Source: Actinomycetes bacterium (GTDB lineage: Bacteria; Actinomycetota; Acidimicrobiia; Acidimicrobiales; Palsa-688). Taken from it: a DNA stretch of 34,895 bases. A program made the position numbers and the translations under genes. Positions 13,393 through 19,400 of the stretch are shown one piece after another. Every line of letters starts with the position of its first letter. Within the stretch, counting starts at the first letter, position 1. Location: positions 5,802-40,696 of the forward strand of contig JAKCDU010000029.1 of NCBI GenBank assembly GCA_021838445.1, written 5' to 3'. Below the pieces are notes generated by a model that did no database searches, was not told where the DNA came from, and saw only the letters and a program-made list of their open reading frames with translations.

Positions 13393-14400
13393 TCAGTTCG
13401 ACCTGGTGGTCGCCGGGGTGGGAGTGCGGCGGGGCCGCCCGGTGGCGGATTCCCCGGAGCGGCGCGGCCCCGGGCCGCGATCGTGGCCGTCCCTCGTCGT
13501 AGCCGCTGACGCCGCACCTTCGAGGGCACGGGCCAGGCCCCTGAGGAACAGCCGGAGGGCTTGCCGGGCTCTCGCCGCCAGCTCAGTGGCGGCGAGAGGG
13601 GGCAGGTGCCCGGGGAGCTGGTGCCAGGTCCCCTCGACGCGCAGTTCAGCTCTTTGGCTGTCGACGGCGATCACCCTGAGGGCTCCCTCGAAGCGGTTCC
13701 GGCGGGCGCCCCCGACGCTCCAGCAGAGGGTGAAGTAGCCGGTGGCCTTGCCTCCGGCCGGCACCATCGTGAGCTCCTCGACTACAGGTGGCCCACCCAG
13801 GTCGGCGTCCTCGGCGCAGGCCTCGCCCATGGCCCGGCCGGCTAGATCGATGAGGGCCTCGGAGAGGGAACCGGCCAGGTTCTGCACCTGCGGTGCCGAT
13901 ACCTCCACCTGTACCGAGTCAGCCACGTCGACCACGAGCGGATGCGAGCGGTGGGAGTCGGCGGGCAGGGGCAGTATCCCGGCCTCTATGGCCGCGTCCT
14001 GCTCGGCCAGCTCGGCCAGGGTGGTCGTGGCCAGCACCTCACGGACCCGAGCGGTGGCCTTGGTCCACGTCTCGTGGAGGGGGCAGACCTGATCCCACCG
14101 GCAGGGGCCGTCACCGAGGGCGCAGCGCTGGGCCCGAAGGTGGCCTTCGGCGGCTTCGACCACCTCCAGCACGCTGATCTGCTCGGGGGGGCGGGCCAGA
14201 CGGTAGCCGCCGTCGCGCCCGGCCCGGGAGGTGGCCAGGTCGGAGCGGACCAGGTCGCCGAGGATCTGGGAGGCGAAGCTGTGGGGGATCTCGGTGTCGG
14301 CCACGACCTCCCGGATCTTCCGGGGGGGTGTCTCGGCGAAGGCTCGGGCCAGGGAGAGTGCGGCGCGCATCACGTAGTCGCCTCGCCGCGACAGGGTCAT
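13393..14400 (-). CDS. Rrf2-family regulator with [Fe-S]-type cysteines and an extra C-terminal domain
   Basis: A 335-residue protein. Residues 1-135 are a Rrf2 winged helix (MTLSRRGDYVMRAALSLAR, IPHSFASQILGDLVRSDL, GRDGGYRLARPPEQISVLEV). They carry Cys93, Cys100 and Cys106 in CALGDGPCRWDQVCPLH, the three-cysteine pattern that binds an iron-sulphur cluster in IscR and NsrR. Typical Rrf2 proteins end near residue 150. Here about 185 more residues follow, with a folded-looking alpha/beta segment (VQVEVSAPQVQNLAGSLSEA, GYFTLCWSVGG, RAELRVEGTWHQLPGH) and an Arg/Pro-rich tail. I do not recognise that domain. The start is placed at ATG 14400 by alignment with the family; no strong ribosome-binding site is visible. 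It is the last gene of the redox operon and probably regulates it, sensing redox state or NO. Confidence 0.82.
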   Translation of the reverse strand: MTLSRRGDYVMRAALSLARAFAETPPRKIREVVADTEIPHSFASQILGDLVRSDLATSRAGRDGGYRLARPPEQISVLEVVEAAEGHLRAQRCALGDGPCRWDQVCPLHETWTKATARVREVLATTTLAELAEQDAAIEAGILPLPADSHRSHPLVVDVADSVQVEVSAPQVQNLAGSLSEALIDLAGRAMGEACAEDADLGGPPVVEELTMVPAGGKATGYFTLCWSVGGARRNRFEGALRVIAVDSQRAELRVEGTWHQLPGHLPPLAATELAARARQALRLFLRGLARALEGAASAATTRDGHDRGPGPRRSGESATGRPRRTPTPATTRSN

Positions 14401-14499
14401 GTCCATCAGCGCGAGGTGGACGGGCCAGCCCCGCAGGGGGCGGTCAGTCTCGAGGACGGACATGGCGGGAGGTCGGGAACGGGGCCCACATGACCCAGC

Positions 14500-16245
14500 C
14501 TATTGGTCGCCGGACGAACCGGCGGGGTGGGATCCGACGGCCCGGCGTGAGGCGCGGGGCTGCTCGTGGAGGACGGCTCGGGCTGCCCGGCGTCCTTGGG
14601 CCATGGCCTCCACGACGGTGGACGGCCCGATCAGGGCATCCCCGGCCACCCAGGTGCGCTCCCGGAACGGCGATGCCGAGGCGACCAGGGCCACCTCGCG
14701 ACCGAGGGCCAGCCGTCCCACCGGGCGACTCCGGGCGGCGACGGGTGCCGGGTTGGCCAGGATGCCGCTGGCCTGCCACCGGCGGTCGGGCACTCCGTGG
14801 GCCTCGCGTCGTACCGGGGTCCCGGCCAGCTGCGAGGTGAAGGCCGGGTCGAGGCGGTAGCCCATGGCCGCCACCACCAGGTCCACGCCGATCTGGGTCC
14901 CTCCGTGGTCGAGGACCCGAGGGCGCGACGTCGCCGACTTCTGCTCTGTCTGGGACAAGGTGGCGGTCCCGACCCGTCCGTCTATGGCGCCGATGGCGCT
15001 GAGGGTGCAGGAGAAGCGGACCTCCACTCCTTCGTCCTCGGCCTCGGCCAGCTCGTCGGACCGGACGGGGGCGTAGCGGCGGTCCATCCAGTCGACGCAC
15101 ACAGCCTCGGCTCCGAGGCGCCGCGCGCTGCGGGCCACGTCCATGGCGGTGTTGCCGGCTCCGAGGACCAGTACCTTCACCGGGCGCCCGTCGCGGGGGG
15201 TCAGATCCCCGAGACCCTCGCCGTGGTCCAGGGCCCATTTGGCCCGCTTGAGGAAAGTGGTGGCGTCCTCGACTCCGGGCAGGTCGGCACCGGCCACCGG
15301 TAGGCTCAGGGCCACGCCGGCGCCGTGGGCCAGGATCACCGCGTCGTGGAGCTCGAGCAGGTCGTCGAGGTCCTCGGCGGAGACCCGCACGCCGCATCGA
15401 AGGTCGGCCCCGGCGGCCAGCAGGTCGGCCCAGGGTCGGTCGCTCACCTCGGTCGGCAAGGTGAAGCTCGGGATCCCCCAGTTGAGCAGCCCGCCCGGTC
15501 GGGGGTCCGCTTCATAGACCGTGACCTTGGCCGAGGCGGCCAGGAGGTCCCAGGCCGCGCCCATACCGGCCGGGCCGGAGCCGACCACGGCCACCGACAT
15601 GCCCTCTCCGAGGGCCGAGGTGACACCTACGGGCGCAACGGGGGCATGGTCGGCGACGAACCTCTCCAGTGCCGATATGGCGACCGGCTGGGAGCCGGCG
15701 AGGGACCACGTGCAGGCCCCTTCGCACTGCAGCGACGCGTCGCATACCCGTGAGCACACGTCGGGCATAACCGTGGTCCGCCGTAGCGTCTCGTGGGCTG
15801 CGTCGAGGTCGCCGGTGGATATGGCGGTGATGAACGCCGGGATGTCGTTGTGGGCCGGGCAGCCCCGCACGCAGGTCGGATCGGGGCATGACAGGCAGCG
15901 CGACGCCTCGGTCAACGCTTCCTCCCACGAGACCAGACCCTGGCGGATCTCGGTGGTGTCACCGGCGATGCTTCCGGGGTGCTGCACCGAAACGGCCCGT
16001 CGGTCGGCGACGCGCGCCGGGCCGGCGACGGCGATGGCCGAGAAGGGGCAGGTGCGTACGCACTGACGGCACCCGACGCAGGACGTGTCGTCGGCCACGA
16101 TCACCCAGCGTTCGGGGTCCATGCCCAAAGCGCCGACCGGGCAGCGCACGAGGCACTCCTGGCAGCCCGCGCAGCGGTCGGTGAGGACCGTGACGTGGCA
16201 TTCTCCCTCGGGGAGATCGAGATGACGGGATTGTGTCATGGTCAT
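14500..16245 (-). CDS. Ferredoxin-GltD-like FAD/NAD(P) oxidoreductase
   Basis: A 581-residue iron-sulphur flavoprotein. Residues 20-70 are a two-cluster ferredoxin (Cys25/28/31/35 in CAGCQECLVRC and Cys56/59/62/66 in CVGCRQCVRTC). Residues 110-200 match the Fe-S domain of the glutamate synthase small subunit (CLSCPDPTCVRGCPAHNDIP, Cys164/168/174/178). An FAD-binding fold follows (VVGSGPAGMGAA, about 220), with an inserted NAD(P)-binding fold (VLGAGNTAMDVAR) and the closing FAD motif WVAGDALIGPSTVVEAM. It would move electrons between NAD(P)H and ferredoxin clusters. GGGAG lies 8 nt before ATG 16245, 12 nt after the membrane ferredoxin stop. The partner is probably that membrane protein. No glutamate synthase large subunit is present, so it is unlikely to be GltD itself. 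Confidence 0.85.
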   Translation of the reverse strand: MTMTQSRHLDLPEGECHVTVLTDRCAGCQECLVRCPVGALGMDPERWVIVADDTSCVGCRQCVRTCPFSAIAVAGPARVADRRAVSVQHPGSIAGDTTEIRQGLVSWEEALTEASRCLSCPDPTCVRGCPAHNDIPAFITAISTGDLDAAHETLRRTTVMPDVCSRVCDASLQCEGACTWSLAGSQPVAISALERFVADHAPVAPVGVTSALGEGMSVAVVGSGPAGMGAAWDLLAASAKVTVYEADPRPGGLLNWGIPSFTLPTEVSDRPWADLLAAGADLRCGVRVSAEDLDDLLELHDAVILAHGAGVALSLPVAGADLPGVEDATTFLKRAKWALDHGEGLGDLTPRDGRPVKVLVLGAGNTAMDVARSARRLGAEAVCVDWMDRRYAPVRSDELAEAEDEGVEVRFSCTLSAIGAIDGRVGTATLSQTEQKSATSRPRVLDHGGTQIGVDLVVAAMGYRLDPAFTSQLAGTPVRREAHGVPDRRWQASGILANPAPVAARSRPVGRLALGREVALVASASPFRERTWVAGDALIGPSTVVEAMAQGRRAARAVLHEQPRASRRAVGSHPAGSSGDQ

Positions 16246-16257
16246 GGTCGGAGCTCC

Positions 16258-17814
16258 CTAGTCGGCGGCGTGCATGATCACGTACAGGAGAGCGGCCCCG
16301 GTGCCGGTGGCGAGTACGACGCTCATGGTGGTGAGGCGCACCCCGAGGGCGCTGCGGCTTATGGGAATGAGCTCCCGCCCGGCGATGCGCCAGGTGGCCC
16401 ACATGGCGGCGGCAGTGCCCAGGGCGATGATGGCTACCTGGGTGAAGACGATCCACCCGTTGGTCATGAGCGAGAAGTTGTAGATGGGGGACCGGGAGGA
16501 GGAGAACCCGGCGAGATGCTGAACCGACGTGATGACCCGCGGTGAGTGCTGGAAGAATTTCGGCAACTGGCGGGCGAAGTAGTCGGCTCCGACGACGGGG
16601 ATCAGCCCATAGGAGAGGGGGGTGAAGTAGGCCCGGAAGCGGGAAGAGCGATCCATGAAGTTGCCCGGCCGAAACAGTTCGACGGCCCGGTTGGCCAGGC
16701 CCGCACTCATGGCCCAAGCGATCCCAGCAACAACGGCTGCGACCAGGGCGATGGTCCCGAGGTAGGCCAGCGGGTTGGGGTAGTGCGGGAAGTCCAGATT
16801 GGTGTTGAGCCAGTTGTCCACGTTGCTGTAGACGTTGGTGGCGTTGAGCTGTTGGTAGAGGACCAGGCCCCAGAGTGCCGCGATCCCCCAGGCCACGTCG
16901 GTGCGGCGTCGGCGGGGCGCGATGACCGAGGTGAGGGGCTTCTGCAGGAACAGCCCCACATTGTCCTCCGGGCAGGACTTGAAGCACTCTGAGCACAGCC
17001 CGCAGCTGAGGTTCGAGTCCGCGCTGCCGGGCCAGGTGTACCACGGGCATCCGTATCCCTTATCGCTGCCTCTCATGCAGTCTTTGGTCTCGCACGAGAC
17101 GCACACCTCCCGGTCGCGGGTCCTAAAGCCGGCGACCGAACCCATGGACCCGACCGACCCGATGAGCGTCGAGAGGGGACAAACGTAGCGACAGAAGGTG
17201 CGGCGCTCGAACACGAGGAAGAAGATCAGGGCGCTACCCACGATGCCCACGACCATCCACGACGTGTCAGCGGGGTTTCCGGGTCCGGCAATGTTGAAGA
17301 ACTCCTCGATCCAGGTGAGCAGGAGGAAGGAGGCGACAGGGATCAAGAAGCCGTAGCGGGCGAGGGACTCGGGGAACTTCCGGCCCAAACCGAAGGTCTT
17401 CTGCGTGCGCTGCCAGAAGCTTCGGCGCTGGATCCACTCGGCGAAGCCGCCGAAGGGACACATGGCGCACCAAGCCCGCCCGACGACGACCATCATCACG
17501 AACACCAGGCAGAACCACACGTACCAGGTGATGGCCGTACCGAAGTTGAGGCCCGGATCGGCCGTACCGAGCAGACCGACGAAGATGACCGTCCAGAACA
17601 CGACCTGATTGGGGACGATCAGGAGAAACTGGAACTTCCGGTTCTTCACGAGGCGGCCCAGGCGGGGGGAGCGGGCCAGCACGTCGAGGCCGGGATCAGG
17701 GTCGCTGGACTCGAAGCGCTGGTTCATGCCCTGGCGTTGAGGCGGCCTCAGCCGCACCGCTGCTTCGATGGGGTCTTCGGGGCCTCGAGCGGGAGCCTGA
17801 TCGATCAATGCCAT
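16258..17814 (-). CDS. NosR/NapH-like polyferredoxin membrane protein
   Basis: A 518-residue membrane iron-sulphur protein. Several hydrophobic segments are visible (about residues 63-82, 95-112, 155-170, 186-202, and at least three more after residue 300). Cysteine motifs include WCAMCP (Cys116/119) and CRYVCP (Cys208/212), both as in NosR/NapH/RdxA-type proteins. A ferredoxin-like region follows, with Cys238, 241, 246 and 256, then [12 protein letters not shown] (Cys271/274/277/281). Such proteins pass electrons from the quinol pool or a flavin to a redox enzyme. ATG 17814 is preceded by AAAGGAGG, which decides it over the frame to 17853. First gene of the operon; the promoter at 17859-17887 has a palindrome in its spacer. 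The terminal acceptor is not in the window. Confidence 0.85.
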
Positions 17815-17858
17815 GGCACCGGCCCCTCCTTTCTGATCGAGCTGACCAAACAACGTAT

Positions 17859-17887
17859 AGCGTAAAACTCTACGTAGATTTAGTCAA
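17859..17887 (-). promoter_or_regulatory. Promoter of the redox operon with a 10-bp palindrome in the spacer
   Basis: On the minus strand, TTGACT (17882-17887) and TACGCT (17859-17864) are separated by 17 nt and lie 45-73 nt before the start codon at 17814. The spacer contains the perfect palindrome TCTACGTAGA (17869-17878). The surrounding DNA is clearly AT-richer than the genes. A repressor bound there would block RNA polymerase; the Rrf2 protein of the same operon is the natural candidate. Confidence 0.55.
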
Positions 17888-18095
17888 CTCCTTTTTCCCA
17901 ACGTTGTCTCGGACAAAAGGGCCCGTGGGCCCGATCCACGTCGGTTCCCCCCATTCGGCAGGGGCCTGGTGCGACTGCACTACAGGACACCGCGGGCCGC
18001 GTCGAGAGTTAGGCCGGTGCGGAACGTGGCCGACTGCCACGCGCCGGTACCAAAGACCTCGCAGAGATCAGTCCGACGACAAGGAGCAGCTCATC

Positions 18096-19400
18096 TTGGT
18101 TCTGGGAATCCAGCTTGCTAGGAGACCACCCACGGCCGGCGCCGCCCCCGGCCCCACCGACACGCCCACGGTCGAGGCCCGGCTCCTAGGAACTGTCGGT
18201 GCCTCCGCCATCAGCGTCGGCGCCACCACTATGAACCTGGTCGAGGCGGCCCGGGAGCTCAACACCCAGAGCTCGGCTGCCGACGCCGAGGTCCAGGCCA
18301 TCGCCCGCGCCTCCGAGGAGGCCAGCGAGCTGATCGGCTCGTTGGCCAGCGCCGCCGATGAGCTGTCAGCCTCACTGCGGGAGGTCTCGCGCAACACCTC
18401 CCAGACCGCCCATGTGGTTCAAGGGGCTGTCGCCCATGCCGAGAGAGTGCGCGAGAGCATGGCCAACCTCGAGGAGGCGGCCCGCAGCATCGCCGACGTG
18501 TCCCGTCTGATAGCCGAAGTGGCCCGTCAGACGAACCTCCTGGCCTTGAATGCCACCATCGAGGCGGCGCGCGCCGGGGCGGCCGGGAAGGGGTTCTCGG
18601 TGGTCGCCAACGAGGTGAAGGAGCTGTCCAAGCAGACAGCCGATGCCACCTCCAGGATCGACGAACGGGTCCGGGCCCTTCTCGAGGGTACGGCCGAGGC
18701 CACCGGCAGCATCGCCGAAGCGGCGGCCATGGTGGAGGAGATCGGCCTGATGACCGACTCGGTGGCGGCATCGGTCGAGGAGCAGACCCACGTGACGGCC
18801 CAGATGGCCCGGAGCGTGGTCGAAAGTGCCGACGCCGCCAGCGACGTGGCCCGCTCCCTGTCGAGCCTGTCGGGCGCGGTGGCGGCCACGCGGACCGCGG
18901 CCGGTCGGGTAGGGCGGGTCAACAACCGCCTCCTGGAGCAGGCCGAGAACCTGGACCTGGGCCTGCAGCAGTATTTCCAGCCGGCCCAGCACCGGGCGCC
19001 GGGCAGTTCGGACGGTACGCCACCGAGGACCACGCCCGAGCGGCTGAAGGCGGCCATCTCGGCCCATGGCTCGTGGAAGGTGCGGCTGCTCGCAGTCGTG
19101 GCGACGGCCAGCTCCGACATCGATCCGGCAGTCGCGGCACGCGACGACCAGTGCGTCTTCGGCAAGTGGATCCACGTCGAAAGCGGCCCCGAGGTCCGGC
19201 AGAACCCGCGGTACGCGGTGGTCCGCGACCTCCACGCCCGGTTCCACCAGATGGCCGGCCGGATCATCTTCGACAGCACTTCGGGGCGGCCCACCGAGGC
19301 CATCGAGACGGTCCGCTTCGGCGGCGAGCTGGACCGGCTCCTGGCCCGGTTGATCGGCGAGATCAACGACTGGCGCGACGAACTGGCCGGCCAACTCTGA
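18096..19400 (+). CDS. Soluble methyl-accepting chemotaxis-like protein with C-terminal CZB domain
   Basis: A 434-residue protein with no membrane helix. Residues 40-290 form the MCP signalling coiled coil, with the conserved hairpin tip around 141-181 ([38 protein letters not shown]). After a Pro/Thr linker comes a chemoreceptor zinc-binding (CZB) domain (about 318-430) with the family ligands His324 (HGSWKVRL), Cys353 (CVFGKW), His380 and His384 (HARFHQMAG). CZB domains bind zinc, and the Cys can react with oxidants such as hypochlorous acid. The start is inferred as TTG 18096, with AAGGAG 9 nt upstream; upstream in-frame sequence looks non-coding. No other che gene is nearby. Its AT-richer 5' region is shared with the divergent redox operon, suggesting a linked redox or metal response. 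Confidence 0.85.

Follow-up and report, generated by a model that had tools for sequence, protein, structure and literature searches.

The stretch of DNA analysed here, 34,895 nucleotides (nt) long and hereafter called the window, belongs to contig 1 of an Acidimicrobiales genome assembled to 3.99 Mb in 117 contigs. On its minus strand lie three adjacent genes for redox proteins and a regulator: a NapH-like membrane polyferredoxin (16258-17814, with an open reading frame (ORF) that extends to TTG 17853), an NfnL/GltD-like flavoprotein (14500-16245; 581 amino acids (aa)) and an Rrf2-family regulator (13393-14463; up to 356 aa). A first-pass annotation of this DNA had described these ORFs, their order and strand, and a promoter-like sequence, TTGACT-17 nt-TACGCT at 17859-17887, and the ORF and sequence checks returned all of them exactly as described. 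The same annotation placed the three genes in one transcriptional unit, which is supported by the short intergenic gaps: 12 nt between the polyferredoxin and flavoprotein genes and 36 nt between the flavoprotein and regulator genes make a single transcript, and thus one unit, likely. The polyferredoxin is more likely to start at ATG 17814 (518 aa) than at TTG 17853 (531 aa) because GGAGG lies immediately upstream.

The polyferredoxin-flavoprotein pair

Relatives of the polyferredoxin were collected as the best 80 of 178 found in one scan of a named genome collection. The resulting 80 loci are mostly from Acidimicrobiales-type metagenome genomes; the nearest two of these metagenome-assembled genomes are labelled Acidobacteriota and Actinomycetes, and the rest mainly Actinomycetes or Acidimicrobiaceae. 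Genes of the relatives were called by a codon-usage gene caller, which fails in the A+T-richer genomes (L118, L122, L123, L137), and adjacency of the pair was counted on aligned segments. By this count the flavoprotein gene lies less than 400 bases downstream of the polyferredoxin gene on the same strand in 78 of the 80 loci, the other two being at contig ends, and the pair is, by comparison of these sequences, an old unit. A polyferredoxin match is found in 63 of 298 genomes when the order is searched, the weak one in genome G056 counted, and in 45 of 296 when the phylum is, there mostly as weak general-family matches.

The membrane protein is a member of the NapH-like/NosR-type group by PF12801 (Fer4_5; 40.9 bits against a cut-off of 22) and matches the NapH/MauN family model with 31 bits. 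It carries the motifs CAMCP and CRYVCP and two [4Fe-4S] sets (C251, C254, C259, C269, C284, C287, C290 and C294 in the numbering of the 531-aa ORF). Both CP-type motifs and both cysteine sets are kept in more than 93% of 92 polyferredoxin sequences, and identity to the window protein is 63-95% across 67 relatives. The protein is not identifiable as NosR: the NosR model gives 16 bits against a cut-off of 1000, the FMN_bind domain (PF04205) was not found in a Pfam search, and no NosZ above the cut-off is found in genome G000. Alignments of 92 and of 68 sequences hold no invariant or near-invariant histidine, which argues against a bis-His heme. The predicted model (pLDDT 72) has long helices and a long extra C-terminal membrane part. 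Compared with solved structures by Foldseek, its best match (E 0.019, a chloride channel, TM 0.12) is noise, and a structure search reached Z 5.9 at best, with Nfn, NosR and other iron-sulfur membrane folds not among the matches listed, a result that excludes nothing. A second polyferredoxin paralogue, 42-52% identical, follows 4Fe-4S and NrfD genes at L125 (G278 contig 70, 5955-11411), which suggests that the family also works with an NrfD module; second matches are also present in G357, G366, G397 and G400.

The flavoprotein (Fer4_7, Fer4_20 and Pyr_redox_2 in Pfam) consists of an N-terminal 2x[4Fe-4S] ferredoxin domain, Fer4_20 and an FAD/NAD(P)H domain, with four [4Fe-4S] clusters in all. 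Its best solved relatives are NfnL-type subunits (4ylf, 5jca and 5vj7; E 1e-65 to 1e-44), and its NfnL/GltD-like character is further seen in the NAD(P) motif G362-x-G364-N-T-A-M-D, invariant across 61 flavoproteins. A C-x-D-W-x-D segment at residues 383-390 (15076-15099, minus strand) is also conserved. Pfam detects a C-terminal flavodoxin domain (PF00258) in 39 of the 61 proteins, and 59 of 65 complete flavoprotein ORFs are at least 680 aa long. The proteins of the window and of the same-genus loci L027 and L028 stop before the flavodoxin domain; for the flavodoxin part of the L034 protein, the rest of the window's genome offers no better match than one of 24.7 bits. At the distant locus L119, where no flavodoxin is fused, a ferredoxin is encoded after the pair in the same orientation.

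Electron partners of the pair

No reductase recurs in the same-strand runs downstream of the pair. Apart from members of the triad, these runs hold 36 proteins, of which an F420H2-dependent quinone reductase-like protein (8/36) is the sole recurrent kind; acyl-CoA dehydrogenases make up 3/36, and other families occur once or twice (first 25 of 43 table rows). Where the flavoprotein gene is complete (60 loci), 31 loci lack any nearby gene that continues the run on the same strand. A single run of followers is long; it appears to belong to L074 (13399-20953), where NiFe hydrogenase-type genes (PF00374, PF01058, Fer4_22 and NAD_binding_1) seem to continue from the pair. There are no c-type cytochromes among the neighbours; a single CxxCH is present in 5 of 567 neighbour genes, all for unrelated-looking proteins.

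The first-pass annotation had proposed that no known reductase accompanies the triad and that its electron route, from NAD(P)H to the membrane clusters or the reverse, serves a reductase yet to be named. In one form of this view, NAD(P)H electrons would cross the membrane through the polyferredoxin and reach an extracytosolic reductase whose gene lies at another place. Such a route has a precedent in NapH-like proteins, which are described in PMC8238504 as feeding nitrous oxide, organohalide and nitrite reductases. Co-occurrence was examined in 61 near relatives, 22 of them polyferredoxin-positive, the window's genome included, and 39 not, with Fisher values that ignore kinship; G056 was removed from the positives, its match (E 1.8e-5, 84 residues) being to the general family only. 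Coupling to NosZ is rejected, true NosZ being present in 2/61 genomes (0/22 positive and 2/39 others), and neither autotrophy (RubisCO in 5/22 versus 11/39) nor NiFe hydrogenase (12/22 versus 18/39) is associated with the polyferredoxin, in agreement with the first part of the proposal. PF00384, with matches in 61/61 genomes, is uninformative as to nitrate and nitrite reductases. FMN_bind proteins are enriched among the positives (19/22 versus 12/39, p 4e-5), which speaks for such an extracytosolic route, but the coupling is at family level only and is gone within the family (17/20 versus 9/12). Moreover, all 15 FMN_bind loci examined have their own ferric-reductase-like membrane protein, also in polyferredoxin-negative genomes, and the FMN_bind proteins belong to a separate ferric-reductase/FMN_bind/ApbE cluster (ApbE in 13/15). 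With NosZ absent from the positives and no recurring reductase neighbour, we regard delivery to an extracytosolic reductase as unlikely.

The second part of the proposal is weakened by the lack of a recurring reductase, by the lack of an FMN_bind domain and of a conserved histidine in the polyferredoxin, and by the flavodoxin fusions, and these same findings point to partnership with a quinone and with a one-electron carrier in the cytosol. We therefore suggest that the pair acts as an NAD(P)H/flavodoxin(ferredoxin):quinone oxidoreductase and not as the feed for a missing periplasmic reductase, an explanation that, taken in full, the self-regulation set out below included, we give an even chance of being correct. 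In this model, electrons would be exchanged in series between (i) NAD(P)H and FAD, (ii) FAD and the four cytosolic [4Fe-4S] clusters, (iii) these clusters and those of the NapH-like membrane protein, and (iv) the membrane clusters and (mena)quinone. The third partner would be a cytosolic one-electron carrier, that is, the fused flavodoxin in most relatives and, in the window's genus, a separate ferredoxin or flavodoxin. Net flow from the reduced carrier or NAD(P)H to quinone would be more likely, and flow from quinol to the carrier less so, because neither an ion-pump subunit nor an FMN or heme acceptor outside the cytosol is present.

Several observations weigh against this explanation. Short flavoproteins without flavodoxin exist in the window's genus and at L070, L071, L074 and L089, so that flavodoxin is not essential; the NAD site reads D385-W386-x-D388 where NfnL has Y-R-R-T, and NADH rather than NADPH may therefore be used; a NiFe-hydrogenase gene set appears to follow the pair in the same run at L074; an Rrf2 gene was not seen at 18 of the 80 loci, some of them cut by contig ends; and, as the polyferredoxin model has no solved-fold match, quinone binding rests on the analogy with NapH. 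Alternatively, the pair could work uphill, with electrons from quinol or NADH, perhaps via flavin bifurcation at the NfnL-like FAD, reducing flavodoxin or ferredoxin for biosynthesis or for a hydrogenase. The NfnL-type fold is that of the bifurcating subunit in Nfn, and the NfnL-type solved relatives, the fused flavodoxin, the ferredoxin gene in L119 and the hydrogenase genes apparently directly downstream in L074 would all fit such a route. NifJ-type POR (at least 250 bits) is also commoner among the positives (11/22 versus 7/39), yet at p 0.018, uncorrected and with related genomes counted. However, the gene-neighbour survey recognised no NfnS-like gene at the relatives' loci, nor were Rnf/Fix-like subunits recognised there, and NiFe hydrogenase is not associated with the polyferredoxin. 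We consider uphill flow improbable and favor an oxidoreductase that links NAD(P)H and a cytosolic carrier to quinone.

The regulator and its promoter

The regulator has an Rrf2 domain (99.9 bits in Pfam) and in NCBIfam scores above the cut-off of the Rrf2 superfamily and below that of every equivalog among the matches listed, IscR (TIGR02010; 71.1 bits against 207.55) and NsrR (NF008240; 32.8 bits against 182) included. Its relatives start at its residue 20, ATG 14406. The predicted cluster ligands C114, C121, C127 and H130 are kept in at least 93% of 77 regulator sequences, which supports the first-pass assignment to the iron-sulfur type of Rrf2 proteins; the ligand set of IscR is likewise Cys-Cys-Cys-His. 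Beyond the winged helix, the predicted model (mean pLDDT 86 for the whole protein) has a helix-grip fold in its C-terminal 150 residues, and a predicted SRPBCC/Bet v1-like domain spans residues 176-327 (13483-13938, minus strand). The closest structures to this part are the aromatase/cyclase ZhuI (3tfz, Z 11.5), a Geobacillus protein (Z 11.3) and the COXG-family protein 2ns9 (Z 10.8), and PF10604 is detected in 19 of 55 regulator members, the window protein not among them. The C-terminus is thus predicted to belong to the SRPBCC superfamily. Titles and abstract starts yielded no description of an Rrf2-SRPBCC fusion or of the triad, the two words of the fusion occurring together only in a natural-products context.

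A related Rrf2 gene is present at 62 of the 80 loci. In classes that overlap, it is directly divergent from the polyferredoxin gene at 37 loci, elsewhere upstream at 7, and downstream at 14 on the same strand, which is the arrangement of the window, and at 17 on the opposite strand. The other common neighbour is a NarL-type response regulator with a HisKA_3 kinase (kinase cluster of 44 proteins at 44 loci). Further genes are grouped near the triad at a few loci. L035 (5532-9360), L065 (1127-5288) and L037 (13567-16755) combine a TAT-type 4Fe-4S protein and NrfD with a protein of COX2 fold that has a CuA-like C-x3-C motif, an odd copper/NrfD mix. At L030, L032, L035, L039, L066 and L089 a ribonucleotide-reductase-small-chain-like protein is grouped with a small protein and mostly also with a ferredoxin.

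In the window the promoter-like sequence comprises a -35-like hexamer TTGACT (17882-17887) and a -10-like hexamer TACGCT (17859-17864), both on the minus strand, and the spacer between them (17865-17881) contains the palindrome TCTACGTAGA (17869-17878), a candidate operator. The window holds 76 perfect 10-nt palindromes, of which only four, TCTACGTAGA among them, have at most four G/C. A consensus scan returned no promoters at a threshold of 9 of 12, TTGACT-TACGCT included. Support for the promoter is comparative, because L027 and L028 retain the pattern: TTGAC-17-TA(g/t)GCT, with the -10-like hexamer kept as TAnGCT and with CCTACGTATA / TCTACGTATA in the spacer. The 13-nt operator string CTACGTAKAGTTT occurs once in the window's genome with up to one mismatch allowed, so that a regulon of exactly this site would be the triad operon. 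Adjoining the promoter is a divergent chemoreceptor-like gene (17808-19400, plus strand; MCPsignal and a zinc-binding CZB domain), an arrangement seen in same-genus loci only.

An expectation-maximisation motif search of the upstream regions yielded AT-rich dinucleotide patterns only, and word counts were used instead. They cover 72 upstream regions (81 minus 9 near-duplicates) and, as controls, 342 further upstream regions from these loci. TACGTA is present in 33/72 regions versus 1/342 controls, with 7.4 expected from dinucleotide shuffles, and ACTTGAC, the word that corresponds in relatives to the -35-like hexamer (GTTGACT in the window itself), in 53/72 versus 1/342, with 2.0 expected, in sets whose G+C is 0.55 and, for the controls, 0.68. 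On these counts TACGTA is very probably a regulatory site of the polyferredoxin promoter.

Which protein binds TACGTA can be argued in two ways. All four loci where Rrf2 belongs to the operon and a response regulator is missing from the vicinity, that is, the window and three others, carry the element, as expected if Rrf2 binds it. On the other hand, TACGTA is commoner at loci with a NarL-type response regulator/kinase pair nearby (23/40) than at those without (10/32), and Rrf2 is for this reason one candidate binder only; for Rrf2 genes located away from the polyferredoxin gene, 0/38 upstream regions contain the element. TACGTA could thus be the site of the NarL-type response regulator, with Rrf2 acting elsewhere or on the -35 region (ACTTGAC, AAGT-N10-ACTT), in line with the presence of AAGT-N10-ACTT in 16 of 33 upstream regions beside a divergent Rrf2 gene. 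We regard this division of labour as a serious possibility of somewhat less than even probability. In L029, L031 and L047, as examples, the divergent Rrf2 gene appears to start within a few nucleotides of a TACACT/TATACT-like box that precedes it on the opposite strand; in such relatives it seems to be expressed like a leaderless transcript that overlaps the polyferredoxin promoter.

Combining the domain and promoter data, we suggest that the iron-sulfur cluster of the Rrf2-SRPBCC protein would report redox or iron status, that a hydrophobic ligand may occupy its SRPBCC pocket, and that the protein, as product of the third gene, probably acts on the operon promoter, by which the unit would control itself. 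In relatives, the NarL-type two-component pair may act on the promoter region, too. A quinone would be a candidate ligand: in PMC13240472, CoxG is a menaquinone-binding protein that connects CO dehydrogenase with the quinone pool, the latter point being cited there from other work.

Significance and comparison with known systems

In acid-loving soil and mine bacteria, the conserved pair probably connects the membrane with NADH and with a carrier of flavin or iron-sulfur type, passing electrons between them. The parts are known and their combination is new, and the module is strongly conserved in Acidimicrobiales-type genomes. A more ambitious reading, that acidophilic actinobacteria possess in this unit a new, membrane-bound type of NADH/flavodoxin:quinone oxidoreductase, made of a NapH-like protein and an NfnL-flavodoxin fusion under a dual sensor with an Rrf2 iron-sulfur cluster and an SRPBCC quinone pocket, appears doubtful to us as a whole. 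If the link from NADH and flavodoxin to quinone is real, it would be a respiratory entry point other than Nuo, Ndh-2, Nqr and Rnf, and if the dual-sensor reading is true, one protein would monitor the quinone pool as well as the redox state of the cytosol. Of all single findings, the most interesting is that a regulator with an SRPBCC domain adjoins a membrane redox unit, and the Rrf2-SRPBCC fusion can be put directly to the test as a candidate transcription factor that responds to a hydrophobic redox ligand.

The polyferredoxin shares with NapH/NosR-type proteins (PF12801; PMC8238504) the multi-helix membrane part, the CX2-3CP motifs and the two [4Fe-4S] sets; it differs from them in having no FMN_bind domain of its own, in its long extra C-terminal membrane part and in its partnership with an NfnL-like flavoprotein. 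The flavoprotein has the Fer4_20, FAD and NAD(P) architecture of NfnL and GltD. Unlike these, it carries an extra N-terminal 2x[4Fe-4S] domain and D-W-x-D in place of Y-R-R-T, most of its relatives add a C-terminal flavodoxin, and its partner is a membrane protein instead of NfnS or GltB. The regulator resembles RsrR and IscR in its Rrf2 fold (Z 14-16) and its Cys-Cys-Cys-His ligand set, and differs from both in the added C-terminal SRPBCC-fold domain and in the ligand spacing C-x6-C-x5-C-x2-H. According to PMC5015018, RsrR is redox-linked and self-regulating, and its site is an 11-3-11 repeat, unlike the 10-nt palindrome of the window. Finally, CoxG (2ns9) has the fold of the regulator's C-terminal domain, which, unlike CoxG, is fused to a predicted DNA-binding protein.

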